The notes below the pieces were generated by a model. The model ran no database searches. It had not been told where the DNA came from and saw only the letters and a program-made list of their open reading frames with translations. Positions 130-37,610 of a DNA stretch of 44,627 nt are shown piece after piece (position 1 is the stretch's first letter; every line of letters starts with the position of its first letter). The position numbers and the translations under genes were made by a program. Origin of the DNA: Pedobacter sp. (GTDB lineage Bacteria > Bacteroidota > Bacteroidia > Sphingobacteriales > Sphingobacteriaceae); NCBI GenBank assembly GCA_004210715.1, contig SEDB01000002.1, positions 1 to 44,627 on the forward strand, in the 5' to 3' direction.

Positions 130-1365
130 TCAGTTAATTTGACTCGTAATTTCTTGGTATACAAACTTATAATTCTCTGCCTGACCATCTATGCTGTAAT
201 CTTGTCCTATGGTTTTGGCGATCTGGTTTCTATTGAATTCGTTAAGTTGGTTAGCACAGTGTAAAAGTGATGCTTTTAGGCCTTGGGTGGTTAATTCATC
301 AGAGAGAAAACCATTTCGCCCATTCACGATTAGATCCTTTAAGCCTCCGATATTAAAACCGACTACTGGTGTGCCCGAAGCTAAACTTTCGAGCATCACG
401 TTTGGAAAATTATCTTCTATGCTTGGCAATAAGTATATATCCGCAGCGCTATATACTTTGCTGATTTCTACTTCCGAATGAATACTACCTAGATAAACAA
501 TCTTATCTTTTCGCTGAGTTTTCTTAATATTTCCAACCGCTACAAACTGAAATCTAGAAAAAACATCTTGATCTTCAACAAGTTCAAGAATATGGCTAAA
601 ACCTTTACGTATGCTTTTAACCGTTTCAGAAATAAATAGAACAGTTATTTTATTTCTATCCAACCCAAATTTGGTTTTTAACTCAGACTGATTTTTGAAA
701 TTGAAAATCTCGCTTTCTAATCCATTAGGAATATGAACATGTTTAAAGTTTCTTAAAATTTCAGAAGATCTTGCCTCATTCAGTAGCCATTTAGATGGTG
801 ATACGACGATCATTCTTGACAATGGTAAATTTGCTAATGAAGCGAGTTTACATAGATACTGTTCCTGGCTAATATCAAAAAGGTGTGGGTTTCTAAAATT
901 ATCTTCTTTGTAATGAAATCCACCCTGAAAAGCACTCATGTCATGCTGAGTCCAAACAATTGGCTTTTTTATATTTCTAAAAAACGACGGATAGTCAACA
1001 AAATTGGGAATCCAATGGAGATTAACTACATCACACTCCGTAACGAGGGGGTGTTCGTGCAAATTGATGAAGGAACTCCTTGCAAAAGAAAAATATTCAA
1101 ACTCACCTTTGAAGCCCTTATATAAATTATCATTTCTATGCTCCAGCGTTTGAGGCAACCCGATTTTCTTTAGCACCCTCAAAAACAAAATGAGATATTT
1201 GTTTTTCTTCGGGTATTCAAAAACTCCTGCATGTTGAGTTTTTTTCTCCAGCACTAAAATCTTACTCTGCAAACCAATATTAATTAGCCCCTTATGCAAT
1301 CTCAACGCTGCTGTCCCAGCACCTCCGCTGTCAGAAAATGTAATATGTAATATCTTTAATGCCAT
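130..1365 (-). CDS. Glycosyltransferase family 4
   Basis: 411 aa; N-terminal LHITFSDSGGAGTAALRLHKGL and C-terminal SIEDNFPNVMLESLASGTPVVGFNIGG typical of GT4. Confidence 0.9.
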   Translation of the reverse strand: MALKILHITFSDSGGAGTAALRLHKGLINIGLQSKILVLEKKTQHAGVFEYPKKNKYLILFLRVLKKIGLPQTLEHRNDNLYKGFKGEFEYFSFARSSFINLHEHPLVTECDVVNLHWIPNFVDYPSFFRNIKKPIVWTQHDMSAFQGGFHYKEDNFRNPHLFDISQEQYLCKLASLANLPLSRMIVVSPSKWLLNEARSSEILRNFKHVHIPNGLESEIFNFKNQSELKTKFGLDRNKITVLFISETVKSIRKGFSHILELVEDQDVFSRFQFVAVGNIKKTQRKDKIVYLGSIHSEVEISKVYSAADIYLLPSIEDNFPNVMLESLASGTPVVGFNIGGLKDLIVNGRNGFLSDELTTQGLKASLLHCANQLNEFNRNQIAKTIGQDYSIDGQAENYKFVYQEITSQIN

Positions 1366-2306
1366 TATACAGACCTACTTTTCACTTTAAACATCATTTT
1401 TGCAACTGTTGCATCGTAGAAAAGCTTCAACTTACTTCGCCCCTTCAGATAAAAATCCCGTCCGTGGTATTTATCGAATTCATAAAAAGAGTGAAAATAC
1501 TTAGGTGCAATCAATTTATCCTCCACCTCATCGCGTTGTCTATGATGAGCACTCGTCGTTTCACTAAAATGCACCCCAACATCTCCAATGTTGGTAACAA
1601 GATTCTTAACCGGCGTAATGCAAAGGCCGTTGTTTTTAAAAACAGCAAATTGCCACTGATAATCCCAAGTATGCTTTATTATCTGATTATAAAGGTTATT
1701 GAACATATATTCCCACCTTTTATAAAGGGGAAAATAGTTATCTAAGATATTATGTAGTAAGCCCTTTCTTTTGAAGTCGGGCCAATCCTCCATCAAAAAA
1801 TCATATTTTAGCCAGGCTCTTCTCCAAGTAGCCCAGCCCCAGATATGAGCATATTTGCTAAAAAAATAACTGCCACTATCTATCTCATATTCTTCATTCC
1901 AACGCGTACCAGCAATGTGCATTACACGGGTATCATCAGCATATTGAGTTAAAAGTTTATTACAAAAACCAAAAAAGGATTCTGAAGGAACACAATCATC
2001 TTCTAATATAATTAACTTCTCTTCACTTTGAAAGGCCCAACTAATCGCCCCAGATACACCAAGTCCACAACCTTGATTACTGTCCATAAAGCGCGTAATA
2101 AGGTTTCCCTCCCAATCGATAGATTCAACTAAATCTCTTGTTTGTTTAATCAGTAACATATCTTCAACCTTTTTATTTTCACGAGGACCATCAGAAAACA
2201 CATATAGTCGCTCAGGGTTATATTTTCTGATCGCTTCGATTACTGTCTTTGTGGTATCTGGTCTATTAAAAGTGATCAAAAGAACAGCAGTTTTATCTAT
2301 TTTCAT
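1365..2306 (-). CDS. GT2/GT-A-like glycosyltransferase
   Basis: 313 aa; VLLITFNRPDTTKTVIEAI start, LIILEDDCVPS acidic motif. Confidence 0.8.
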   Translation of the reverse strand: MKIDKTAVLLITFNRPDTTKTVIEAIRKYNPERLYVFSDGPRENKKVEDMLLIKQTRDLVESIDWEGNLITRFMDSNQGCGLGVSGAISWAFQSEEKLIILEDDCVPSESFFGFCNKLLTQYADDTRVMHIAGTRWNEEYEIDSGSYFFSKYAHIWGWATWRRAWLKYDFLMEDWPDFKRKGLLHNILDNYFPLYKRWEYMFNNLYNQIIKHTWDYQWQFAVFKNNGLCITPVKNLVTNIGDVGVHFSETTSAHHRQRDEVEDKLIAPKYFHSFYEFDKYHGRDFYLKGRSKLKLFYDATVAKMMFKVKSRSV

Positions 2307-2317
2307 AATGTAGTTGG

Positions 2318-3547
2318 TTAAAAATCAAATTGAAACCCAAGAAATTTTTTCAAAAAGAAATTAGATGCTCTATGAAAAAATTTAACTTTTAGTTTAACCC
2401 ATAGCAAAAATACCACAACCCCCTTATCAAAAGAATTAAAGTTTTTTAACCCCTCCAAAGAATTCAATTTGATTTTCTGAGAAATTGCGATACCATCTAT
2501 AAGATAACTTAAGCTTTGTTTAGCAATCTTTATTGAGTCATAAATTGAAATGATTCTTTCTCTACCCTTTGCCCCTAGTTCAGCTCTTAGTGATGGATCT
2601 TGGTAAAGCTTACGCATACATTTAAACATGTCTCGGTCGTTGTTAACGCAAAAGCCGCCGATTGCATCTCCTACAACCTCTGATTGCGAGTTATCAGCCC
2701 ATGGTGTATTTAATACGATGACTGGGGTTTCACACAAAAGAGATTCTGCTAGGACATAACCAAAACTTTCACCTTGACTCGAGGCATGAACAAACACATC
2801 TATACTAGAATAACAATCACACAATGATTTGTCTCCAGTGATTCTTTCTATGTGAATTACGTACTCGCTAAGTTTTCGTTCTTTAACATAGTTAAGGAGT
2901 TGCTGACTTGGACTAACCAAAATCAAAATCACCCTTGTCGACACCTTTTCAATAAACATCTCCAAGGTATCAACTAAATACCTCGACCATTTGCCTCCAA
3001 AACTTTGACCGATTTTGCCCAACACAAAGGTATCTTCAGGTATGTTATGGGATCTTCTAAAATTTGCACGGTCTTCAAGACTTGATTTTTTGAAGTTTAC
3101 AACGTCAACTGGATTAGGTAATATCAAAGACTTTTTTTCATTTCCACCTCTTGAAATATAAAGATAATTGCACCATTCAGAGAGTTGGAAAGAATATTTC
3201 AAAATGTCCTCTGGGTAATCAGACAATTCTGAAAAAACATTGGTTTCGATAAATATTGCAGATGGACATGTTTTCTTGATAGTCAAAATATCAATACCCT
3301 TTATAGCATGAGAGTGTACATGAATTACATCAGGAGACCAAATACTTAACTCAGATAAATAATCTTTTGAAATACCAACATTTACCTTGATACCACCGCG
3401 ACTCAAATCGATTTCTCTTTGCCCACCAGTGTACAATGCTAACATCCTGCTATCATTCCCTAATCTAAAATAGGCTTCACAAAATGTTTGCGCAGCCCTT
3501 TGAGTACCTCCTTGTTCGAGATTATAAACGATTGTAAGAATTTTCAT
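2318..3547 (-). CDS. Glycosyltransferase family 4
   Basis: 409 aa; LEQGGTQRAAQTFCEAY and SSQGESFGYVLAESLLCETPVIVLNTPWADN. Confidence 0.88.
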   Translation of the reverse strand: MKILTIVYNLEQGGTQRAAQTFCEAYFRLGNDSRMLALYTGGQREIDLSRGGIKVNVGISKDYLSELSIWSPDVIHVHSHAIKGIDILTIKKTCPSAIFIETNVFSELSDYPEDILKYSFQLSEWCNYLYISRGGNEKKSLILPNPVDVVNFKKSSLEDRANFRRSHNIPEDTFVLGKIGQSFGGKWSRYLVDTLEMFIEKVSTRVILILVSPSQQLLNYVKERKLSEYVIHIERITGDKSLCDCYSSIDVFVHASSQGESFGYVLAESLLCETPVIVLNTPWADNSQSEVVGDAIGGFCVNNDRDMFKCMRKLYQDPSLRAELGAKGRERIISIYDSIKIAKQSLSYLIDGIAISQKIKLNSLEGLKNFNSFDKGVVVFLLWVKLKVKFFHRASNFFLKKFLGFQFDF

Positions 3548-4869
3548 TAACTCTTCAATTTAAAAATATTTTTTGTCGGTATAAATAATATAGATTCAAT
3601 TCTCAAAAGATATATCCATCTTTCATTGTACAAGAAAAAACCAAAAAAGAACAATGAGGTATCAGCAATTAAGGTACTCAAAGAAGCCCCAACAGTTCCA
3701 AATCGAGGAATTAGAAATGTGTTAGCAACAATATTTATTCCTGCAATCAGCAATTGCCTGAACAATATAGTTTTGCTCTTGTTCAATTTTTGCAAAATAG
3801 TACTAGTCACTATGTTCAAATAGGTGAATGGTATTGTCCAAATTAGAATATTAACAACAGATATACTGTCTTCATATTTTACTCCATATAAAAGATTTAT
3901 GGCAAATGAGGAAAAAATATTTACCCCAACGGATAATAACACTAGCAAATAGAATATCGACCGTAGCATAAAAATCAGTTTACTTCGCTCTTTATTAAAA
4001 TCCATCTCTAAAATTTTAGGATATATAGATTGGCTTATGAGCATGGGAATGAATGTGAAAATTTCGGCGAATTTTACGCCAACGGCATAATATCCAACGT
4101 TGACATCATTCATGTAACTCTTGATCATAACTTGGTCGATCCGCATTCCAATTGAAATTGAAATACTTGACAATATCAAAGGCCAACTATCTTTCAATAA
4201 CATAAGGCAAATTCCTTTGTCGAAACTCCACGCTTTTATCGTTTCTTTATTTTTTTTATAAAAATAAATGAGGCCGATTGCAAGGACAATATTCTCAATA
4301 ACCGTTAATAAAGCGAATAATACTAATGGAGCCTTAAGTAGCAGAAAAAGCACTTTTAACACTGTTGACACTATCAACACCAAAATGTTAACATAAACTA
4401 CAAACTTAGACTCAACCTTTGATTGGAAATAAAAATCAATTACGTTAAAGCTTTGAAATATCGTGGATGATGCAACAATCAAAACAACAATTTTAGTATA
4501 GGAGTCACTTGGAATTATATTTATTGCGATAAATAAAAAAAGAAAAGTAACTGCGCCCCCGATCAATTTCATGATGAAAGACGTTCCCATGAGTAAATTC
4601 TTGTCGTAGTTTTTTTTGACAAGTTCTCTAATAACTATATTATTTAATCCAAGGGTAGCTAAAGCACTGAATAAGGCGACTAGGCTTTGCGCATAGTTTA
4701 AGATGCCAAATTTTTCCGGCCCCAGATACCTTGCGACCCAAACCCCAACCACAAGGCCGACACACATCCTGATGAGCTGTTCTGAAAAGAGCCAAGAGGT
4801 GTTAAACACATATTTTTTTATAGTCTTGTTTTCACCTAATAAGCGAATTCTTCGAACTAGTTCAGGCAT
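3547..4869 (-). CDS. Oligosaccharide flippase (Wzx/MATE-like)
   Basis: 440 aa; multi-TM, N-terminal NTSWLFSEQLIRMCVGLVVGVWVARYLGPEKFGILNYAQSLV typical of Wzx. Confidence 0.92.
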   Translation of the reverse strand: MPELVRRIRLLGENKTIKKYVFNTSWLFSEQLIRMCVGLVVGVWVARYLGPEKFGILNYAQSLVALFSALATLGLNNIVIRELVKKNYDKNLLMGTSFIMKLIGGAVTFLFLFIAINIIPSDSYTKIVVLIVASSTIFQSFNVIDFYFQSKVESKFVVYVNILVLIVSTVLKVLFLLLKAPLVLFALLTVIENIVLAIGLIYFYKKNKETIKAWSFDKGICLMLLKDSWPLILSSISISIGMRIDQVMIKSYMNDVNVGYYAVGVKFAEIFTFIPMLISQSIYPKILEMDFNKERSKLIFMLRSIFYLLVLLSVGVNIFSSFAINLLYGVKYEDSISVVNILIWTIPFTYLNIVTSTILQKLNKSKTILFRQLLIAGINIVANTFLIPRFGTVGASLSTLIADTSLFFFGFFLYNERWIYLLRIESILFIPTKNIFKLKS

Positions 4870-4916
4870 ATTGCTTTAATCGTTATATTAGATCTAAATA
4901 ATCTTTGGTCGACTAT

Positions 4917-7301
4917 TTAAAATCTACTCTTAAAATCACCAAATACAGGTTTCAAAAAGCTGGATTTAGTATTACTATAATATGAATCGTCATATTGATA
5001 TCCATATCCGTATTTTACTCGTTGCAATGAATTAAAAACGATACCTATGTTTGTTATCTGGCTTTGGCTCTGCAACTGCTTTAAAAACTTAAGTTCCTTC
5101 TTATCTGTATATCCCTGTCTTACAACATAAAGTGTAAGATCACTTAATCTCGATAAAATGATTGCATCAGGAACCAGGTGTGCAGGTGGACTATCAATTA
5201 TGATATCGTCAAAATCCTCCTTTAACTTTTCTATTAGCTGAGAAAGCTCTCTTTTCTCCAGCAATTCGGAAGGATTGTCAATGAGACTACCGCAACTGAT
5301 CAAACTGAGATTGTTATTTCCATCAACCTTCTGAATAATGTCGTCAATGTTTGCATTACCATTCAGATATTCGCTTAAACCCTTGTGCGATGCATTGAGT
5401 CCAAAATATTCAGCGATTTTTGGTTTCCTCATATCTAACTCCAGTATAACCGTTTTCTTAAAAGCTAGAGATAACGCCTTGCTAATGTTAGCACTGATGA
5501 AACTCTTACCCTCTTTCGATATGCTTGAAGTTACTAATGTTACCCTACCAGTTTCTTTTTTATCGTGTAGATAATAAAGTTTTATTCTCAAAGCACGCAA
5601 TTCCTCGCTTATGGCATTTTGCTTGTTTGAAGTAATCGTTGTAGACTCAGCTGACTTCTCATAAGGAAGTTCACCTACCACAGGAATATCAACTATTTCA
5701 GAAATATCGTGAGCTGAGATGACTTTTGTTGACATCGCCCCCCTTCCATAAACAACGCCGATCGGCAAACCCAATCCGAACACAAACGCGATGACATAGG
5801 TTAAGGCCTTTGGATCCTTTGGTTCTTCAGAGTAAGCATTATCAACTATTCTATTGTTTGACAGATTTGAAGCATACTTTACAGCGACCTCTTCTCTTTT
5901 TTGAAGCAGATAGGTATAAGTATTTTCCTTGCTAGATTGTTGCCTTTTGATATTTACGAACTGGCGTTCATCAGATGGAATATCTCTGATTGACGATTCG
6001 AATTTATTATTGTACAACTGCAATTTATTTCTAGTATCGAGCAAATTACTTTTGATATTTTTCACACTTTCTTTAATTTGTGCTCGTGTGGTTTTGATTT
6101 GTCGATTAATTGGATCAAACTCTGGATTACTTTCTGGCATATCAGCAGCCATTTTATCGTGAGTCAGTTGAAGGTTTGATAGTTTTTCGATTGAGCTGGA
6201 TAATGCAGCATCACTGATACCTATTGCTGAAGGAATTCGATTACTATTCGCACTAGAGTTCACGTAACTATCAATTCCGTTAATTACACTAAGTTGTAGA
6301 TTTGCTTCATTGAGTTTGGCGTCATTTGCCTGCAAATTCTCCAAACTGATTTTAGTCTGTGAACTGATATCTGTTAAGCCTTTACTGCTCTTGAAGCTTT
6401 CAATCCCTGACTCTGCTGTCGAAAGGTCGCCATTTAATGAGGCGAGTCTTTGATCTAAAAACTCCAAGGTATTTTTTAACTCACGATTTTTTTCATTCGT
6501 CGAAGATGCATAGTACTCTGAAATTAATCCGTTCAAAACATCCCTTCCACGTTTGTCATTAACATCAGAAACTGTTAAATCTATAGCGGTTCCCAGTTTA
6601 CTTGACAGACTTGCATCAATTGATTGCTGAAGTTCTAAAGTTTTTGTTTCAGGTTCAGAAATAGCCATGAATAAAACCTTATCTTTTGACTGAAGAATAT
6701 TATTGGAAGGAATGAGTTTCCAACTGCCAAAGGAGCTTTTGAATATTTCATTAAAGGTTGCAGTTCTCGTAGATTTATCAGGTAGATAAAGAGTAAATGA
6801 TTTTGCATCCAATATTTTTATCTTCACACCTTCATTGTCTAATTTTCCAGATTTCTTGACAAGTACAAATTTAACTGGCGAATCTTTGTACATATCAACA
6901 GAAGATAAGCCATCACTTTTGGTTAATAAACCATCTTTTCTATAATAGGTCACCCATAAACCTAAATCATTCACAATTTTATTAACAAGTTGTCTTGATT
7001 TCAAAACTTTTATCTCATTATCTATTAACTGAGAATTATTAGTCAATCCGATATCATCAAGCGGTTGTCCTTTAGAATTGGTTGATTTGCTATCATCTTT
7101 CACAATTAATGTCGCCTTGATTTCATACATAGGCTTGTAGCGTTTCAAATAGACAAATGCTAGTGCAAGAGTTAGAACCAATGCTATTAGAAATAATGGC
7201 CAGTGAAATAAATACCTCCCCAGAATTTCCTTCCAATTTTCCTCACTCTTCTTCGTTTCTCCTATTATATAGGTAGTAAACTGTGCTTGTTGTGTACTCA
7301 T
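4917..7301 (-). CDS. Wzc-type polysaccharide co-polymerase / BY-kinase (module 1)
   Basis: 794 aa; Wzz domain, Walker A SSISKEGKSF, A' ILELDMRKP, Walker B DDIIIDSPP, Tyr-rich C-terminus YGYGYQYDDSYYS. Confidence 0.95.
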   Translation of the reverse strand: MSTQQAQFTTYIIGETKKSEENWKEILGRYLFHWPLFLIALVLTLALAFVYLKRYKPMYEIKATLIVKDDSKSTNSKGQPLDDIGLTNNSQLIDNEIKVLKSRQLVNKIVNDLGLWVTYYRKDGLLTKSDGLSSVDMYKDSPVKFVLVKKSGKLDNEGVKIKILDAKSFTLYLPDKSTRTATFNEIFKSSFGSWKLIPSNNILQSKDKVLFMAISEPETKTLELQQSIDASLSSKLGTAIDLTVSDVNDKRGRDVLNGLISEYYASSTNEKNRELKNTLEFLDQRLASLNGDLSTAESGIESFKSSKGLTDISSQTKISLENLQANDAKLNEANLQLSVINGIDSYVNSSANSNRIPSAIGISDAALSSSIEKLSNLQLTHDKMAADMPESNPEFDPINRQIKTTRAQIKESVKNIKSNLLDTRNKLQLYNNKFESSIRDIPSDERQFVNIKRQQSSKENTYTYLLQKREEVAVKYASNLSNNRIVDNAYSEEPKDPKALTYVIAFVFGLGLPIGVVYGRGAMSTKVISAHDISEIVDIPVVGELPYEKSAESTTITSNKQNAISEELRALRIKLYYLHDKKETGRVTLVTSSISKEGKSFISANISKALSLAFKKTVILELDMRKPKIAEYFGLNASHKGLSEYLNGNANIDDIIQKVDGNNNLSLISCGSLIDNPSELLEKRELSQLIEKLKEDFDDIIIDSPPAHLVPDAIILSRLSDLTLYVVRQGYTDKKELKFLKQLQSQSQITNIGIVFNSLQRVKYGYGYQYDDSYYSNTKSSFLKPVFGDFKSRF

Positions 7302-7306
7302 AAGAT

Positions 7307-8056
7307 TTATCTATAAATATTTGAGAGAACAATAGCAATTATCGATAGGCCAGACAATACAAGAGTGGCGGTTCTATAACCACGATCTACAGTTGCATAT
7401 TTAGTGCGATCTGGCTGAACATATATCTCATCATTATTACGAACGTAATAATATGGTGATTCGAATATTTTTTTTGAGGTAAGATCAATAGGAATAAATT
7501 GTCTCTTGCCATCTTCTTCTCTAACCAGAATAACTGTTTTCCGCATTGCTGTTATATTTAAATCCCCAGCCATACTCAAAGCCTGGGTGATAGTCGTCCG
7601 TTCATTTTGAAGGCTATATACATTTGGACGCTCTACATCGCCATATACACTCACTTTGAAGTTTAATATTCGCACATTCACAACTGGGTCATTGTAGAAT
7701 TTCAATAACATTACGTTTAGCTTTTCCTGAAGCTCAGTTGTAGTTAACCCTTCTACTTTCACACTACCAATTACAGGCAAATGAACATTCCCTTTCGTAT
7801 CAACCTGATAGCCTGGAATTGCATTTTGCTGATTATTGGGTTCGTAACTAAAAATAGATGAAGACTCCGGCGTTCTGCTACTCACCTTTATTGCTAATAT
7901 ATCCGTTGGTCTAATGGTCAAGGGCGAAAAGTTTTTGACATCCTCAATTATCGCTTTACTACGATCAAGGTCTTGATAGTATGGGATATTTTTATACGAG
8001 CCACACGAGCTCAAGAAAAATAAAAATGCAATCAAAAAATAATAATTCTTATTCAT
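7307..8056 (-). CDS. Wza/OPX polysaccharide export lipoprotein (module 1)
   Basis: 249 aa; lipobox LSSCGSYKNIPYYQD, SLBB-like GDVERPNVYSLQNERTTITQALSMAGDL. Confidence 0.93.
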   Translation of the reverse strand: MNKNYYFLIAFLFFLSSCGSYKNIPYYQDLDRSKAIIEDVKNFSPLTIRPTDILAIKVSSRTPESSSIFSYEPNNQQNAIPGYQVDTKGNVHLPVIGSVKVEGLTTTELQEKLNVMLLKFYNDPVVNVRILNFKVSVYGDVERPNVYSLQNERTTITQALSMAGDLNITAMRKTVILVREEDGKRQFIPIDLTSKKIFESPYYYVRNNDEIYVQPDRTKYATVDRGYRTATLVLSGLSIIAIVLSNIYR

Positions 8057-8109: not shown

Positions 8110-8157
8110 CGAAAGTCCTGCATTTCGCCTTTCAAAGCAATAGCCCCATAGGGCTAT
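8110..8157 (-). promoter_or_regulatory. Dyad element A plus -7-like box upstream of wza (module 1)
   Basis: Sense ATAGCCCTATGGGGCTATTG (8157-8138; perfect ATAGCCC/GGGCTAT hairpin), 20 nt, then GACTTTCG (8117-8110); shared with five other sites. Confidence 0.7.
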
Positions 8158-10087: not shown

Positions 10088-10135
10088 ATAGTCTAAAAGG
10101 GCTATTGTCCTACCCTTGAATATGGGATAATTTAG
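10088..10135 (+). promoter_or_regulatory. Dyad element D plus -7-like box upstream of rfbF
   Basis: ATAGTCTAAAAGGGCTATTG (10088-10107), 20 nt, TAATTTAG (10128-10135). Confidence 0.7.
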
Positions 10136-10343: not shown

Positions 10344-11159
10344 ATGAAAGCAGTGATTATGGCTGGTGGGTTAGGAACCCGAATCAGCGAGGAAAGTGGC
10401 GTCAGGCCCAAACCTATGGTTGAAATTGGTGGGAAACCAATTCTTTGGCACATTATGAAAATTTACTCGTGCCACGGAATTAATGATTTTATTGTTTGCT
10501 GTGGTTATAAGGGTCACGTAATCAAAGAGTATTTTGCAAACTACTGTCTAAATAACTCTGATGTCACGTTTAACATGAAAACAAATTCCATGGAGATTCA
10601 TAAGAATGAGACCGAGCCGTGGAAAATTACACTCGTAAACACCGGGCATAACTCCATGACGGGCGGTAGATTAAAAAGAGTAGAAAAATATTTAGATAAT
10701 GAAACATTTTGCATGACTTATGGTGATGGTCTAAGTGATGTTGATATTACTCAATCCATTGCTGCCCATCAGGCAACCGGAAAGTATGCCACACTAACCG
10801 CTGTCCAGCAACCAGGCCGCTTTGGTGTTTTCAATTTAGGAGAAGGCGAGAACACGGTACATTCATTCCAGGAAAAACCTGATGGATCTGAAATGCCTTG
10901 GATCAACGGCGGTTTTTTTATTTTGGAGCCTGAAATATTTAATTATATCGAGGATGATGATTCGGTTTGGGAAAAAGAGGCTATGGAAAATCTCGCAAAG
11001 GATGGGCAGTTGAATGCCTTCAAACACTCCGGATTCTGGCAACCAATGGATACCTTGAGAGACAAGACTTACTTAGAGGATATTTGGCAACAGGGAAAAG
11101 CCCCATGGCATTGGGAATCATTGTTACACAATATAGCTTTAAACAAAATCATTCTATAA
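10344..11159 (+). CDS. rfbF: Glucose-1-phosphate cytidylyltransferase
   Basis: 271 aa; [42 protein letters not shown] signature. Confidence 0.95.
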
Positions 11160-29267: not shown

Positions 29268-30674
29268 TCAGAACGCATTTTCTTCCCCACCGAGGGCATT
29301 AGTAATGGTCTTAATTATTATTTTTATATCCTTAATTAAAGTCCAGTTCTCCATATATGAAATATCATGCTTTACACGACCCAGCATTTGAGCATGCTCC
29401 TTCGTCTCTCCACGAAAACCGTTTACCTGAGCCTGCCCAGTAATTCCTGGCTTCAAAAATTGTCTGACCATGTATTTATCCACTATCTGTCTATATTCCT
29501 CAGTGTGTTTAAGCATATGTGGACGGGGCCCTACCACACTCATATCGCCAAAAAAAACGTTAAAGAACTGTGGCAGTTCATCAATACTTGTTTTACGCAT
29601 AAAAGCACCAATTCTGGTAACTCTTGGATCATTACGTTCCGCCTGCTTGGTATCACTGCTTCCATTTACTTCCATGCTCCGGAATTTAAAACAATAAAAG
29701 GGTTCATTATCTCTTCCTGAACGCAATTGCCTAAAAATTGGATTTCCTCTTGATTCTATCAAAATCAAAATCATCAATATTGGGAATAACCAGGAAAGAA
29801 CAAAGATGATGACTGCCATGCTGAAGATAATATCAAAACATCTTTTAACAATTCTGTTTCTAAGTCTAGTCAAAGGCTCTTTTCTACTGACTAATATCGG
29901 AATTCCATCATAGTAATTATTTAACTTATAGTTGGACATTTTAAGCGATCGCTGTTCCCTCTGGTAGTTCATAAAGGAGGTTACGAACTTGACCCTTACA
30001 CAATGCTGGTCTGCAAGTTCCACAATCTCATCAAGGGCATTACCCCTTTCCGGAAACTCAGTGATGTATACCTCATCCAAGTGATTTTCGATGGCGTATT
30101 TTATAGAATCTCGGACACCATCAGCCTGCAAAGTATTAGCTGAAACTTCCTCATGTTGGTAATTATATGACCCTGAGAAATTTACAGTTAACGGATTCGT
30201 TAAGAAAAATTTTTCGAGTCGGTTACCTAGATCGTTGTTACCAACAATGGCGATGTTCTTCCTGAATAAGTTCATTCTGACATAATATCTTTCGAAGACC
30301 TGGGTGGCTAAACGTATCACACTGAGCAAAAAAATCTCGACTACAAAAATTAAAAATATCCTCAGTGTAAAATGAACTGTAGGAGTCAATTGATTAACTA
30401 TTATTGAAAGTAAAATCACTTGCACCAAGAATGTGAGCAACACTTTTCTATAAAGCAATTCTTGTTTCTGTACATTCTTAAAAGTATAAGTTCCATTTAT
30501 AATCGCACCAGTCAGCCAAGTCAAATTAATAAGCACCAGAAATTGTGCAGCTCCACCTATGTCAGTTTGCTTTAAAAACCCGGAAAAATAAAAGATTGCA
30601 AATGAACTATTGATTGCCAAAGCATCTACAATTACCAATAAAGTAATTAATATAAAAACATGACGACTTTTCAT
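29268..30674 (-). CDS. Undecaprenyl-phosphate sugar phosphotransferase (WcaJ-type PHPT)
   Basis: 468 aa; KRCFDIIFSMAVIIFVLSWLFPILMILI, FRQLRSGRDNEPFYCFKFRSM, RKTSIDELPQFFNVFFGDMSVVGPRPHM. Confidence 0.95.
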   Translation of the reverse strand: MKSRHVFILITLLVIVDALAINSSFAIFYFSGFLKQTDIGGAAQFLVLINLTWLTGAIINGTYTFKNVQKQELLYRKVLLTFLVQVILLSIIVNQLTPTVHFTLRIFLIFVVEIFLLSVIRLATQVFERYYVRMNLFRKNIAIVGNNDLGNRLEKFFLTNPLTVNFSGSYNYQHEEVSANTLQADGVRDSIKYAIENHLDEVYITEFPERGNALDEIVELADQHCVRVKFVTSFMNYQREQRSLKMSNYKLNNYYDGIPILVSRKEPLTRLRNRIVKRCFDIIFSMAVIIFVLSWLFPILMILILIESRGNPIFRQLRSGRDNEPFYCFKFRSMEVNGSSDTKQAERNDPRVTRIGAFMRKTSIDELPQFFNVFFGDMSVVGPRPHMLKHTEEYRQIVDKYMVRQFLKPGITGQAQVNGFRGETKEHAQMLGRVKHDISYMENWTLIKDIKIIIKTITNALGGEENAF

Positions 30675-30743: not shown

Positions 30744-30791
30744 TAAATTGACAGATTTTATCCCATCGAATCAATAGCCCCAAAGGACTAC
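30744..30791 (-). promoter_or_regulatory. Dyad element B plus -7-like box upstream of WcaJ
   Basis: Sense GTAGTCCTTTGGGGCTATTG (30791-30772), 20 nt, TCAATTTA (30751-30744). Confidence 0.68.
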
Positions 30792-30820: not shown

Positions 30821-31474
30821 TCAAGTAAAACTATAGACTGAAGTATTCATGTTATAATGATTGAATTTGTTGAGCGCTTCAACCTTATTCTGAACATGTA
30901 GCCTTTTGTAAATATTTTTGCAATGATTCTTTACTGTATTTGGACTTATATCTAGTTGATCTGAGATTTCCTTATATAACAAACCTTTGCTCAATAGAGA
31001 TAACACTTCAAGTTCACGATCGGTTAGACCCAAGGTAACTTGCTTTTCATGCTGCTTTCCGCTCAATAACCCGATAACTCTTTTAGCAATATATGGGCTC
31101 ATAGGCGCTCCACCTTCGGAAAGATCAATGATTGCAGCGTGAATTTCTTCCATACTTGACCCTTTTAGAATGTAACCAGAAGCGCCAGATTTTAGAGCAT
31201 TGAAAACATTTTCATCATTTTGATAACTGGTGCACATTAAAAATTGAGTGAATGCAAGATAAGATTTTGATTGACGGACAAAATCAATTCCAGAAAGCTT
31301 TTGTAACTTTATATCTACCAAGGCTACATCAGGTTTATCTAGATGCATTTTCTGGAGAGCTTCTTCTGCCGAAGAATAAACTCCTTTAAGAGTAAATAAG
31401 GGATTAACTTGGATAACTTTAACAAGAAGATTACGATATTGCTCGTGATCTTCAACAATGGAAACTGAAATCAT
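30821..31474 (-). CDS. NarL/FixJ (LuxR)-type response regulator
   Basis: Receiver SIVEDHEQYR, DVALVDIKL, K in GYILKGSS; HTH LTDRELEVLSLLSKGLLYKEISDQLDISPNTVKNHCKNIYKRL; alternative upstream start 31507. Confidence 0.93.
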   Translation of the reverse strand: MISVSIVEDHEQYRNLLVKVIQVNPLFTLKGVYSSAEEALQKMHLDKPDVALVDIKLQKLSGIDFVRQSKSYLAFTQFLMCTSYQNDENVFNALKSGASGYILKGSSMEEIHAAIIDLSEGGAPMSPYIAKRVIGLLSGKQHEKQVTLGLTDRELEVLSLLSKGLLYKEISDQLDISPNTVKNHCKNIYKRLHVQNKVEALNKFNHYNMNTSVYSFT

Positions 31475-31547
31475 AAAAACATTAATTAGAGAGTTATTAT
31501 TAAACAACTATACTCTATTCCCTTTAACGTTAATAAAACGGGCGCTT

Positions 31548-31564
31548 GTTGAATAGTATTCAAC
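31548..31564. repeat. Perfect 17-bp palindrome in the divergent RR/HK intergenic region
   Basis: GTTGAATA-G-TATTCAAC. Confidence 0.8.
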
Positions 31565-31816
31565 TTTTGGTAACGTATACGAAAGATAGAGACAACTTTT
31601 TGTAGGACTTCGGGACCGTCCTTAAAACACCGCTAATATACAACGGTTATTAATTGATTTTAAATTTTAGTATGTCCTTTTAAATCACTTATTTAGTAAA
31701 TGCTCAATGCACGTAACAGAAAATTATGAATACAGAAGAGTTAACCAAAATAATACAAATTAATCTACATAAAAATAATCTTAAGTATTATTTAACTTAC
31801 AAAATAAATCTTCGAA

Positions 31817-32665
31817 ATGAGTCCAATTTTTGATATTTTAGCTAACAATTCTGCTTTGCTTCTTTTCGACTATAATGACTATCGTCATGCCTTGTGGGTC
31901 TCCTTATTTGCTGTAATTTTATTACTGGCCTATGCTTTACGAATGATTTATATCAATCAACGTTTGAAACAGGTAGAGAGAAATGAGTACCTAGAACAGA
32001 GTAAGGCGATCAGATTAGAAAGACAGAGAATTAGCAGTGAACTTCATGACGAACTTGGCTCAGGTTTATCTGCTATAAAATTATATTCGGAATTAGCTAG
32101 TAAAAAACGAGGTGAAATTCCTGAATTTCAGGAGCTAAATGAGATGATAAAAGATATTTCTACAAAAATTAATGACATAATTTGGACGACAAGCACAGAA
32201 AACGATCAACTTGACAGTGTAATTTTCTTTATTCAAGAACAATTATCTAAATTATTTCTATATTCTGAGATAAAATTCAGTTCTAATCTACCAGAGAATA
32301 TCCCACAACTGAAAGCAAAGAGCGAAAGTAGACGTGATTTCTATCTTTTAGCAAAAGAAATTGCTCATAATGCGCTTAAACATTCCGAAGCGGACACAAT
32401 TCATCTAGAAATTAGCATTCTTAAAGACAGTATTACAATGACTATCAAGGATAACGGGAATGGTTTCGATCCGTTAAGAGTTGGGAATGTAGGAATGGGT
32501 CTTTCAAATATTAATATGCGTGTAGAGAGATTGAGTGGCAATTTGACAATAGAAAACTACAAGGGAACTAAAATATCGATAAGTATTCCGATACTTAACA
32601 ATTTCTACCAAGAGTTTGGCAATGGAAATATACTAATACAAAAAAAATGGTGGAAGCTTGGCTAG
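31817..32665 (+). CDS. HisKA_3-type sensor histidine kinase, one TM, minimal sensor region
   Basis: 282 aa; ERQRISSELHDELGSGLSAIKLYSELA, DNGNGFDP, GMGLSNINMRVERLSG. Confidence 0.92.
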   Translation: MSPIFDILANNSALLLFDYNDYRHALWVSLFAVILLLAYALRMIYINQRLKQVERNEYLEQSKAIRLERQRISSELHDELGSGLSAIKLYSELASKKRGEIPEFQELNEMIKDISTKINDIIWTTSTENDQLDSVIFFIQEQLSKLFLYSEIKFSSNLPENIPQLKAKSESRRDFYLLAKEIAHNALKHSEADTIHLEISILKDSITMTIKDNGNGFDPLRVGNVGMGLSNINMRVERLSGNLTIENYKGTKISISIPILNNFYQEFGNGNILIQKKWWKLG

Positions 32666-33222: not shown

Positions 33223-34364
33223 TTAACTGTGATAATTCGTGCTTCTAATTGGTTGGTAACCGAAGAGTGAGCGTTCCGAGATGAAATGAGATAGTTTAAA
33301 TGGTTGATATGTTGATCAATAACTACTGACCAATTGTAAATTTCAACCGTTTTTTTACTATTACTATCGATTAACATACTATACTTTGACTTTTTAGCTA
33401 TAACTGATTCTAGTTGCTTAGCCACCTGGGCTGAGTTTGTAAAATAAAGAGCATCTCTACCTAGCACATATTGATTCGCGCTGCTTTCGAAAACAGAAAG
33501 CAAGCAGCTAGCAGCCATCGCCTCATAAAGCAAATATGTGGGCTCATCACGTCCATAATAAACAATTTCTGAGAAATAACGTAGGCAATCCAGTCTATTT
33601 TTATCATAAATACTTCCAATAAACTCAATCCGAGGACAATGGCTATACTTTTCTTTCAAATAACGGCCTATAGGTGTGGAATGATCTCCAACAACAATAA
33701 ATCGTTGTGAAGACGATGACATAACAAAGCCATCCAATATCATTTCGATCCTGTTATGTTTTTCTAAACTACCTATGTATAGGCTATATCGATGGGATTT
33801 AAGAGATTGTTGATCCAACCCTACTTGACACTTGACCCCCACTGTTTCCACTCCACAAGGAATAAATTTGACCCTTTTCTTATACCGGTCTCTTAAATAT
33901 GCACAGCTAAGGCTAGAATCTGAAATAATGGAATGGCTATAACGAACCGCAAGTTTTTCTGCTAATCCAAGGAATTTTGATGTCAACGTATTATATTTTT
34001 TAAGTTTCCATTCTATAGCTGATATGTTTGAGACCAAAATTACATTTTTTGGAAGCATCCAACTCCATATTCCGCTAGACGGGCCATATTGGATTACAAT
34101 GTCACATGTTCTATTTTTAAGATCTCTAAAACAAAAATAATCATAAAAGAAACTGCTAAAAGATCCAATTCTATATTCAGGGTCATGAATATGAATCAAT
34201 TTTATTCCCTGCCATTCTGTCTTTTGATAAGAATGATTATGAGCACAATAAACGGAAACCTCATGCCCTTTATCTGCTAAGCCACGAGCTAAAAATTGAG
34301 CACCCTTCTCGAATCCCCGGTAAAAGTCAGGTATCCCCCTTGTACCTACAATTACAATTTTCAT
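33219..34364 (-). CDS. Glycosyltransferase family 4 (DUF1972-like N-terminus)
   Basis: 381 aa; MKIVIVGTRGIPDFYRGFEKGAQFLARGLADKGHEVSVYCAHN. Confidence 0.9.
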   Translation of the reverse strand: MKIVIVGTRGIPDFYRGFEKGAQFLARGLADKGHEVSVYCAHNHSYQKTEWQGIKLIHIHDPEYRIGSFSSFFYDYFCFRDLKNRTCDIVIQYGPSSGIWSWMLPKNVILVSNISAIEWKLKKYNTLTSKFLGLAEKLAVRYSHSIISDSSLSCAYLRDRYKKRVKFIPCGVETVGVKCQVGLDQQSLKSHRYSLYIGSLEKHNRIEMILDGFVMSSSSQRFIVVGDHSTPIGRYLKEKYSHCPRIEFIGSIYDKNRLDCLRYFSEIVYYGRDEPTYLLYEAMAASCLLSVFESSANQYVLGRDALYFTNSAQVAKQLESVIAKKSKYSMLIDSNSKKTVEIYNWSVVIDQHINHLNYLISSRNAHSSVTNQLEARIITVK

Positions 34365-34435: not shown

Positions 34436-34483
34436 TAAAATTACCTTGACATCGGCCGCTTATCAATAGCCCTTAAATACTAA
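34436..34483 (-). promoter_or_regulatory. Dyad element C plus -7-like box upstream of the GT4/acetyltransferase operon
   Basis: Sense TTAGTATTTAAGGGCTATTG (34483-34464), 20 nt, TAATTTTA (34443-34436). Confidence 0.72.
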
Positions 34484-35156: not shown

Positions 35157-35987
35157 TTATTTTATCAAACTATTCAGCGTTTTCGAAGCTTTTCTAAAGT
35201 CATTAACTTTTAATACTAAACCAACGTTCTTTATGCGTTGATTGGTAAAACTATTAACACCGGGAAAAACTTGAGATTTAGGGACCTTCGGTTTCTTAAT
35301 CAATATTTTACAAATTTTCCAGAAGGCAGTCATGCTTATATCGGTGTCAATCAATGACCAGAGTTCATAAAAATTCTTAAATGCAACAGCTTTATGATTT
35401 ATAGCAAAATTTAACATAGCTTTAGTTACCTCCTTTTGTCTCTCGACCCTAGCATGATCATCATATTTCGTTCCAGCTACACGAACCCTCGCATAAGCCA
35501 CTGCCTGATCTCCAGTAAGCGTTACTTCTCCGGTTTTTGTCAATGGTAAAACGGCCATACCTTTAACACTGGCCTGTTCAAGTATATATCCGTTGACATA
35601 TGGATAAATATCCTTGTCAACGTTTAGTTTTACACCTCCAAATTTATCAATCACTTCAGCAGTTTTTTTAAAATCTGTCACTATAGTGGAGGATAAGTCA
35701 GTTTTAAAGTTTGCATTGATAGTCCTGACTAGTAGATCCCTCCCGCCAAGTTTATAAGCTGCATTTAGTTTTTGATTACCATAACCTTTGATGTAAACAT
35801 ACGTGTCTCTCATAATTGAAGTTAGCTTTACCTCATTATCCTTAACAGTGATAATCATAATGACATCTGCATTCCCTCTTTTATTATTTTCTCTTGAATC
35901 TGAACCAATTAGTAAAATTTGATGAGCATTAACGGATATTGCTAATAAAAATGTGAAAAGAATGGAAAGAGTAAATTGCCGGATCAT
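35157..35987 (-). CDS. LytR-CpsA-Psr (LCP) family protein with signal peptide
   Basis: 276 aa; LLIGSDSRENNKRGNADVIMI, SIMRDTYVYIKGYGNQKLNAAYKLGG, DDHARVERQKEV. Confidence 0.92.
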   Translation of the reverse strand: MIRQFTLSILFTFLLAISVNAHQILLIGSDSRENNKRGNADVIMIITVKDNEVKLTSIMRDTYVYIKGYGNQKLNAAYKLGGRDLLVRTINANFKTDLSSTIVTDFKKTAEVIDKFGGVKLNVDKDIYPYVNGYILEQASVKGMAVLPLTKTGEVTLTGDQAVAYARVRVAGTKYDDHARVERQKEVTKAMLNFAINHKAVAFKNFYELWSLIDTDISMTAFWKICKILIKKPKVPKSQVFPGVNSFTNQRIKNVGLVLKVNDFRKASKTLNSLIK

Positions 35988-36017: not shown

Positions 36018-36065
36018 CAAAATTAAGCTTCGCGATAATTTCCGCATATAGCCTTTTTTCACTAT
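36018..36065 (-). promoter_or_regulatory. Dyad element F plus perfect -7 box upstream of the LCP gene
   Basis: Sense ATAGTGAAAAAAGGCTATAT (36065-36046), 20 nt, TAATTTTG (36025-36018; exact TAnnTTTG). Confidence 0.7.
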
Positions 36066-36319: not shown

Positions 36320-36688
36320 TTATTTGTCTGGATTAACTGCGAAAAATACATTACGCTGCAACAAAGATGACTTCTTTTTGGTTGGCTGGCATTTCCATTT
36401 TTGACTAGATAACCTAAAGCAATTATCTAGGGTTATATGGGATTGAATCGCAGCATTATCGAATTCGGATTTCATCACACTGATTTTAAATATTTTATCA
36501 TGATCAACGATACTATACCAAAAATAACCATTGTTGGTAAATTTGTCAACAAGCAGCCCCTTGACGATCTGACCACCAGGTCGTGTAGATTGACGAGGAT
36601 AAACACCCGATTGATATACCTTTTGAGCAAATGACGCCGTTGATAACATCATGAGAATTATTAGTAATTTATGTGAGTGAGGGTTCAT
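36320..36688 (-). CDS. Small secreted protein of unknown function
   Basis: ATG at 36688: MNPHSHKLLIILMMLSTASFAQKVYQSG... signal peptide; the longer ORF start (36790) would overlap element E, so the internal start is favoured. Confidence 0.7.
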   Translation of the reverse strand: MNPHSHKLLIILMMLSTASFAQKVYQSGVYPRQSTRPGGQIVKGLLVDKFTNNGYFWYSIVDHDKIFKISVMKSEFDNAAIQSHITLDNCFRLSSQKWKCQPTKKKSSLLQRNVFFAVNPDK

Positions 36689-36711: not shown

Positions 36712-36759
36712 TAAATATTGCGACTTTGATAAGATCAATAAATAGCCTTTTCGTACTAA
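36712..36759 (-). promoter_or_regulatory. Dyad element E (degenerate) plus -7-like box upstream of the small secreted protein
   Basis: Sense TTAGTACGAAAAGGCTATTT (36759-36740), 20 nt, AATATTTA (36719-36712). Confidence 0.55.
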
Positions 36760-37044
36760 TTGCCAAACCCATTTTTCTTTTTTTCTCCAAAAAAAGTATT
36801 CATTGAAAACCTTGATGATCTCAGTTCCAACAATTGTATAAAGAAATGCGTATTACCAATATGCTACCTTTCTAAATGTGGGGTCTATAAGGAGGGTTTT
36901 GCTTCGCTTAGTTTGAAAGGCACTCCTACATCATCCGCCAGTTGGTTGAAAGGAATGTTTGTATTTCGCATCCTGTGTCATATATTTGCGGCGAAAAGAA
37001 TTTAGAATTAATAAATAATCGTCCCGAGATTAGTTATTTCAACT

Positions 37045-37077: not shown

Positions 37078-37610
37078 AAAAAAGCCCATCATTGCTGTCA
37101 GGCTCCCAATTGATAACCTATCGTCCCGAAAAGATTACCAAAACAAAAGTGTTAAGAATTTTATTAGTCCCAAATAGTACAATAGGACTAAAAGAAAAAC
37201 AAAACAAAATGGATCGAATATTATTGTGGCTACATAGCTATCGGTTAAAACCCTGAATTTTGAGATGTTGGATATCAGTTGCTAGCAGAGTGTGTAATCA
37301 AAAACTTTGACCGGCCTCCTTTGATTTCCTGGTCATCAATTTATTGTTAAAAAAGCATCAGCAGAATTTCAGTGTCCGAAACAGTCCCGCACGCATTCGA
37401 AAATATTTTTGATATCAAGAAAATGGTTCAATTTTTTATCATTTGCTTAAATTGGGACGATATATAAATTAAAAGCTATGTTTCGGTTGCTGCAATTGTA
37501 TAGGGATTGCGAACAAATAATGATTCTAATGGTTATATAGGACTAACAATGCGTTTTTGAAGAAATAACATGATTCCTAAGCCTTTGCTTCCAACGTACA
37601 CTATATTTTA

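Follow-up and report, generated by a model that had tools for sequence, protein, structure and literature searches.

Which regulator governs the EPS locus described here, and through which DNA site, is the question raised by a short inverted repeat that recurs in front of its genes. The window, meaning the whole 44,627-nucleotide stretch analysed, comes from Pedobacter, a soil bacterium whose nearest named relative is P. agri, with a response regulator (RR) 96% identical. Pfam and NCBIfam searches of the window proteins identified a Wzx/Wzy-type EPS locus around this RR and a histidine kinase. Genes at 130 to 8056 on the minus strand encode wza, wzc-like, wzx and glycosyltransferase functions, and the other EPS genes of the window include a second wza/wzc pair and genes for Wzy-like, WcaJ, WecG/TagA, acyltransferase and LCP-family proteins. 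The RR gene (30821 to 31474, minus strand) and the kinase gene (31817 to 32665, plus strand) are divergent, with a gap of 342 nt between them, and lie in the middle of the EPS locus, as the initial annotation had it. That annotation also placed a dyad just past the 3′ end of the RR gene and ahead of wcaJ, and the dyad TAGTCCTTTGGGGCTATTG does start 30 nt past the RR stop codon, 116 nt ahead of the wcaJ ATG. The comparisons reported below suggest that the RR very probably turns the EPS locus on via this palindrome in its promoters, the two having been acquired and lost in step over hundreds of related genomes.

The RR, the proposed reader of the dyad, is 217 amino acids long when counted from its ATG; the mechanical open reading frame begins at a TTG at 31507. 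It consists of a receiver domain (Pfam Response_reg, 4e-18) followed by a GerE/LuxR-type HTH domain (2.6e-18), both passing curated cut-offs, and is thus a member of the NarL/FixJ family, with VraR and DevR among its nearest solved relatives. The phosphorylation residues are intact in the translation (E8/D9, D54, T82 and K104), their types are kept at the corresponding positions in an alignment of RR orthologs, and the recognition helix NTVKNHCKNIYKRLHVQNK is near-invariant across 25 orthologs. One locus of P. frigidisoli (G264, L189-L190) encodes two RR-kinase pairs, and each pair has the conserved recognition helix.

Read toward the downstream gene, the motif is TAGYMYNNNNGGGCTATTG. A profile scan identified four strong copies in the window, with E-values of 2.5e-9 to 1.5e-7 when searched over the window, each ahead of a predicted target and each accompanied by a -7 box. 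The copy TAGTCCTTTGGGGCTATTG (30772 to 30790, minus strand; -7 box TCAATTTA, 30744 to 30751) lies in the promoter of the wcaJ-like gene, which encodes an initiating sugar-phosphate transferase (29268 to 30674, minus strand; Pfam and NCBIfam). Ahead of the wza-like export gene (7307 to 8056, minus strand, ATG at 8056; Pfam and NCBIfam), which heads the wza-wzc-wzx-glycosyltransferase run from 8056 to 130, lies TAGCCCTATGGGGCTATTG (8138 to 8156, minus strand; -7 box GACTTTCG, 8110 to 8117). The remaining two are TAGTCTAAAAGGGCTATTG (10089 to 10107, plus strand; -7 box TAATTTAG, 10128 to 10135), ahead of a nucleotidyltransferase gene starting at 10344, and TAGTATTTAAGGGCTATTG (34464 to 34482, minus strand; -7 box TAATTTTA, 34436 to 34443), ahead of a DUF1972/GT4 gene with its ATG at 34364. 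A dyad promoter is also found ahead of wcaJ in G048, G054, G264, G325, P. chinensis and P. agri, and the RR-adjacent site is kept within 150 nt 3′ of the RR gene in 9 of 23 loci, those of the Pedobacter EPS clade.

Weaker matches were scored by position weight matrix (PWM), for which one random site of at least 10 bits is expected per Mb per strand. The copy TAGTCCTATTGTACTATTT (37172 to 37190, minus strand; 19.0 bits) has CACTTTTG 20 nt on and no clear target gene, and TAGTACGAAAAGGCTATTT (36740 to 36758, minus strand; 11.1 bits) lies ahead of a 122-amino-acid open reading frame at 36320 to 36688. A marginal copy, TAGTGAAAAAAGGCTATAT with TAATTTTG (36046 to 36064, minus strand; 8.2 bits), could be a chance match; it stands ahead of the LCP (LytR-CpsA-Psr) family gene at 35157 to 35987 (minus strand), itself a member of an EPS locus in a Gram-negative organism. 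Outside the window, the best operator-like match in the same genome (E 0.003) is in L387 (G000:C581) at about 1366 to 1416, where TAGTCCAAAAAGGCTATTT, with ATCAATTTTATAA downstream, lies ahead of a 40-amino-acid lipoprotein-like open reading frame beginning MKKIIFSIVLLSFLASCAQK. A one-mismatch dyad in contig C449 (L003) of this genome lacks both GGGCTATTG and the -7 box and was taken as chance. A separate 9-mer, ATCGTCCCG, occurs twice in 110 nt, at 37018 to 37026 and 37120 to 37128, with 0.07 expected in the window, and also near other intergenic ends of the genome (L003, L389).

Alignment of 70 distinct copies from genomes that encode the RR (RR-positive) establishes that the motif belongs to a composite promoter of fixed geometry, in which the 7-2-7 site TAGYMYT-NN-RGGGCTA is followed by a TTG at -33, 20 bp and TAnnTTTG. 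The -7 box falls exactly 20 nt past the TTG although it was absent from the query, and its two core positions are T in 70 and 68 of the 70 copies, while its A is present in 60. The dyad divides as TAGCCCT-AT-GGGGCTA, inverted heptamers 2 bp apart, as do the 69 other copies. Together, the -7 box and the -33 TTG match the Bacteroidota sigma-A promoter consensus, which has TAnnTTTG at -12 to -5 (PMC9723704); with this element as the anchor, the TTG occupies -35 to -33 and the dyad, 16 bp long, extends from -51 to -36. The earlier view that repeats near -40 would fit the dyad is thereby refined to a centre at about -43.5 from the predicted start. Operators of NarL also have the 7-2-7 form, and a site used in NarL work, TACCCCT-AA-AGGGGTA (TACCCCTAAAGGGGTA; PMC4549865), is equal to the Pedobacter dyad at 12 of 16 bp, the third base of the heptamer being G in the Pedobacter site and C in the NarL site. 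NarL acts as an activator at napF, from a 7-2-7 site given as -40/-49, and at yeaR, from one given as -38/-47 (PMC4549865), and the centre of the Pedobacter site falls between those of the two. The resemblance of the motif geometry to that of the RR's own family backs the annotation's guess linking the RR to the dyad.

Confinement of the motif to RR-positive genomes was established in a family scan of 351 genomes, in which RR orthologs were called at 63% identity or above. The exact motif was present in 19 of 19 RR-positive versus 10 of 332 RR-negative genomes (Fisher 2e-24, before correcting for relatedness), and in these 10 it occurs once each, mostly inside open reading frames and without a promoter. 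Among 25 RR-negative matches examined, 20 lie inside long open reading frames and a single one has a -7-like box, and the wcaJ and ugd homologs of RR-negative genomes carry no motif. Among 100 relatives, close orthologs of the RR and kinase occur jointly, and divergently, in the same seven other Pedobacter genomes; the TAG form of the motif is restricted to those seven and the window's genome, and RR-negative Pedobacter have at most one TGG-form match each. Two of the RR-positive genomes, G299 and G349, belong to a genus other than Pedobacter. With a 52-nt profile, the best E-value per genome was between 5e-8 and 6e-5 for 21 RR-positive genomes and 0.0013 or higher for 21 RR-negative genomes; as this profile was built from RR-positive copies, its success there is partly by construction, and the independent count is that of the exact-pattern scan. 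Persistence of the motif in genomes lacking the RR ortholog, the outcome that would have spoken against the proposed link, was looked for across the 351 genomes and not found.

Relatedness was addressed with a gyrB tree covering 55 genomes; four were not parsed and one was omitted. At least 9 independent changes in RR presence fall on its supported branches, and the motif follows the RR in 9 of 9 independent transitions (sign test, median p about 0.004); in very close pairs such as G058/G031 and G043/G041, both traits differ together. Together with the exact-motif counts, the profile separation and the 7-2-7 geometry, these transitions lend sequence-level support to the RR-motif link that the annotation had drawn from proximity and family. 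Gene content was compared across 24 RR-positive loci, where the RR, which was the selection criterion, is the sole gene found in all 24, followed by a sugar transferase (23), the kinase (22) and an acyltransferase (22), with all others in 16 or fewer; no other regulator is common to the 24 loci. Some operators are distant from the RR gene. The RR of G048 lies at 3.65 Mb, with operators at 0.26 to 0.29 and 0.75 Mb, and in G054 an rfbB-like gene that has an operator is separated from the RR by about 200 kb. A test on ugd breaks linkage only partly, because the ugd genes that carry the motif are extra copies that belong to the EPS locus.

Remoter RR homologs (41 to 48% identity) have other recognition helices and differently spelled 7-2-7 dyads beside the RR gene, often spelled alike on both RR flanks and accompanied by correspondingly spaced TTG-like and -7 elements. 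These variant sites include TATAACT-TT-AGTTATA and TCTAACT-TT-TGTTCTA in Chitinophagaceae, TTCCACT-TA-AGTGGTA and TTCCACT-TC-TGTGGAA in G082, TACTACT-TT-TGTAGTA and TACTACT-AA-AGTGTGA in G066, and TACCACT-TT-TTCAGTA in g53. Variant dyads (7-2-7 plus -7, score of at least 12) were found at 6 of 26 RR flanks versus 12 of 367 control upstream regions (p 0.0005), a modest and post hoc enrichment, scored after examples had been seen. Strict palindromes counted over the whole loci of the remote homologs were not enriched overall relative to controls. The apparent covariation of protein and site in these homologs is supporting rather than decisive.

These observations suggest a mechanism in which the neighbouring kinase would phosphorylate the RR, and the phosphorylated RR would dimerise on the 7-2-7 site TAGYMYT-NN-RGGGCTA, the downstream end of which abuts the -33 TTG of the sigma-A promoter. 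Positioned at about -43.5, the RR would most likely recruit RNA polymerase by a contact at the adjoining -33 region, and EPS operons would thereby be switched on together, including the wza-wzc-wzx genes, nucleotide-sugar genes, wcaJ and glycosyltransferase genes, some of them at other chromosomal loci. The site, its promoter phase, its distribution over genomes and its targets are seen in the sequences, and from there we infer binding, phosphotransfer, activation rather than repression, and the pairing of kinase and RR. Counted against the RR-dyad model is the RR's own promoter, which is without a dyad in nearly all orthologs: a scan of 500 nt upstream of the RR in 23 orthologs, made for autoregulation via the dyad, returned a copy in G024 only, and the RR of the window is thus not obviously autoregulated. 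A different conserved element, GATTTAAAAGGACATA (31670 to 31686, minus strand), dissimilar to the dyad, is present in roughly half of the orthologs, about 200 to 245 nt 5′ of the RR start, which suggests that the RR may be controlled by another regulator. A 17-nt palindrome between the RR and kinase genes, GTTGAATAGTATTCAAC (31548 to 31564), was discarded as its palindromy is absent in P. agri.

That the RR is the transcription factor reading the dyad at the EPS promoters is, on balance, highly likely. Co-occurrence is a correlation, and another regulator encoded elsewhere could read the dyad with the RR as a co-inherited passenger; such a regulator would need to track the RR through 9 independent gains or losses, none is common to the loci, and the 7-2-7 geometry of the site is that of the family to which the RR belongs, remote RR homologs having variant sites beside their genes, so that this explanation is improbable. 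Less probable still is that the dyad and RR travel together as functionally unlinked parts of an EPS cassette. Most copies do lie no more than about 50 kb from the RR gene, and the ugd that bears the motif is an additional copy belonging to the EPS locus, but distant copies exist (G048 and G054), the RR and dyad stay while the gene content of the locus turns over, and the motif is strongly constrained with its promoter phase fixed.

The palindromic sequence, and the copy directly 3′ of the RR gene, might also be taken for an RNA hairpin, acting either as a terminator following the RR gene or in pausing or antitermination of the NusG/RfaH type. The strong copies all lie about 85 to 240 nt 5′ of a start codon and a fixed 20 nt before a -7 box, which puts them ahead of the transcription start. 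The dyad is not followed by a T-run, and no NusG-like domain was found among the window proteins scanned; the RNA-element reading is rejected as having almost no chance of being correct. Repression by a dyad-bound RR is unlikely, though the most probable of these alternatives; in its favour, the site touches the -33 element. NarL 7-2-7 sites at equal distance activate napF and yeaR, however, the NarL repression site at frdA being located at the start site (PMC4549865), and genomes without the RR also lack the dyads instead of keeping them unbound.

The proposed partner kinase, of 282 amino acids, is a HisKA_3 kinase by its Pfam domains (HisKA_3, 1e-8; HATPase_c, 4e-11), with H77 of the H-box within SSELHDELGSGLSAIKL and the catalytic core of DesK as its closest solved relative. 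Hydropathy analysis found one hydrophobic stretch above threshold, at residues of about 23 to 48, and no recognisable input or sensor domain was found in the protein, which has about 22 to 25 residues, one TM segment and a linker before its catalytic part and exposes hardly anything outside the membrane. A sensor domain is usual but not obligatory in HisKA_3 kinases. The short N-terminus and single TM segment noted in the initial annotation recur in 21 aligned full-length orthologs, so the layout is not a local truncation. In 22 of 24 RR-positive loci, the kinase gene lies next to the RR gene and is transcribed divergently from it; counting against the model, no kinase homolog was found in the examined DNA of G299 and G349, the two RR-positive genomes outside Pedobacter.

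A stand-alone receiver of about 134 amino acids (Pfam Response_reg, 1e-13) is a frequent dyad-headed gene in RR-positive relatives (L077, L071/L072, L074, L193 and others, for example G026:C1:3061371-3061772 and G058:C1:366935-367336). Its acid pair reads VDGG and a Ser takes the place of the phospho-Asp (SSLRMP), so that phosphorylation of this receiver is not expected; it was not found in the window's genome, and divergent versions are present in RR-negative genomes too. By analogy, it may be the counterpart of EpsW of Myxococcus, which acts on EpsZ (PMC12802240). Rather speculatively, and with little expectation of being right, the kinase might be no environmental sensor and might report through its membrane segment on the state of the EPS machinery, such as that of WcaJ or the use of undecaprenyl phosphate, with the non-phosphorylatable receiver feeding back on WcaJ as EpsW does on EpsZ, but without phosphorylation.

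Searches of an open-access library found no EPS regulator of this type from Pedobacter or Bacteroidota, and the regulon seems undescribed, although its parts are of known kinds: a NarL-type RR, a 7-2-7 operator, a HisKA_3 kinase and a sigma-A promoter. EPS control in Pedobacter is thus assigned a predicted transcription factor and a proposed DNA site for it, along with the geometry of the promoter and a list of targets in several operons. RcsB, or RcsAB, of enterics is a LuxR-type RR acting over a wza-wzc-wcaJ type locus for colanic acid capsule, and the Pedobacter arrangement is alike in this respect. RcsB differs in using a phosphorelay, often RcsA, and a different box, whereas Pedobacter has a single adjacent HisKA_3 kinase; no Hpt protein or hybrid kinase was found among the window proteins scanned, and the site is 7-2-7, not an RcsAB box. 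DesK/DesR, VraS/VraR and LiaS/LiaR similarly pair a HisKA_3 kinase having a small membrane part with a NarL-type RR. In kinases of the DesK, VraS and LiaS type, at least two TM segments serve to sense the membrane; the Pedobacter kinase is unlike them in having one, preceded by about 22 to 25 residues. Plain Bacteroidota sigma-A promoters differ in turn from those described here, which have a 7-2-7 operator joined to the -33 region and a spacer held at 20 nt. NarL and NarP of E. coli share with the Pedobacter RR a receiver with a LuxR-type HTH and inverted heptamers 2 bp apart; the Pedobacter system is unlike them in its Bacteroidota-type -33/-7 promoter, its EPS targets and its kinase without a nitrate sensor. 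Among related RRs, the site drifts in spelling but keeps its 7-2-7 geometry, a natural series that is useful for the study of DNA recognition in the NarL family.
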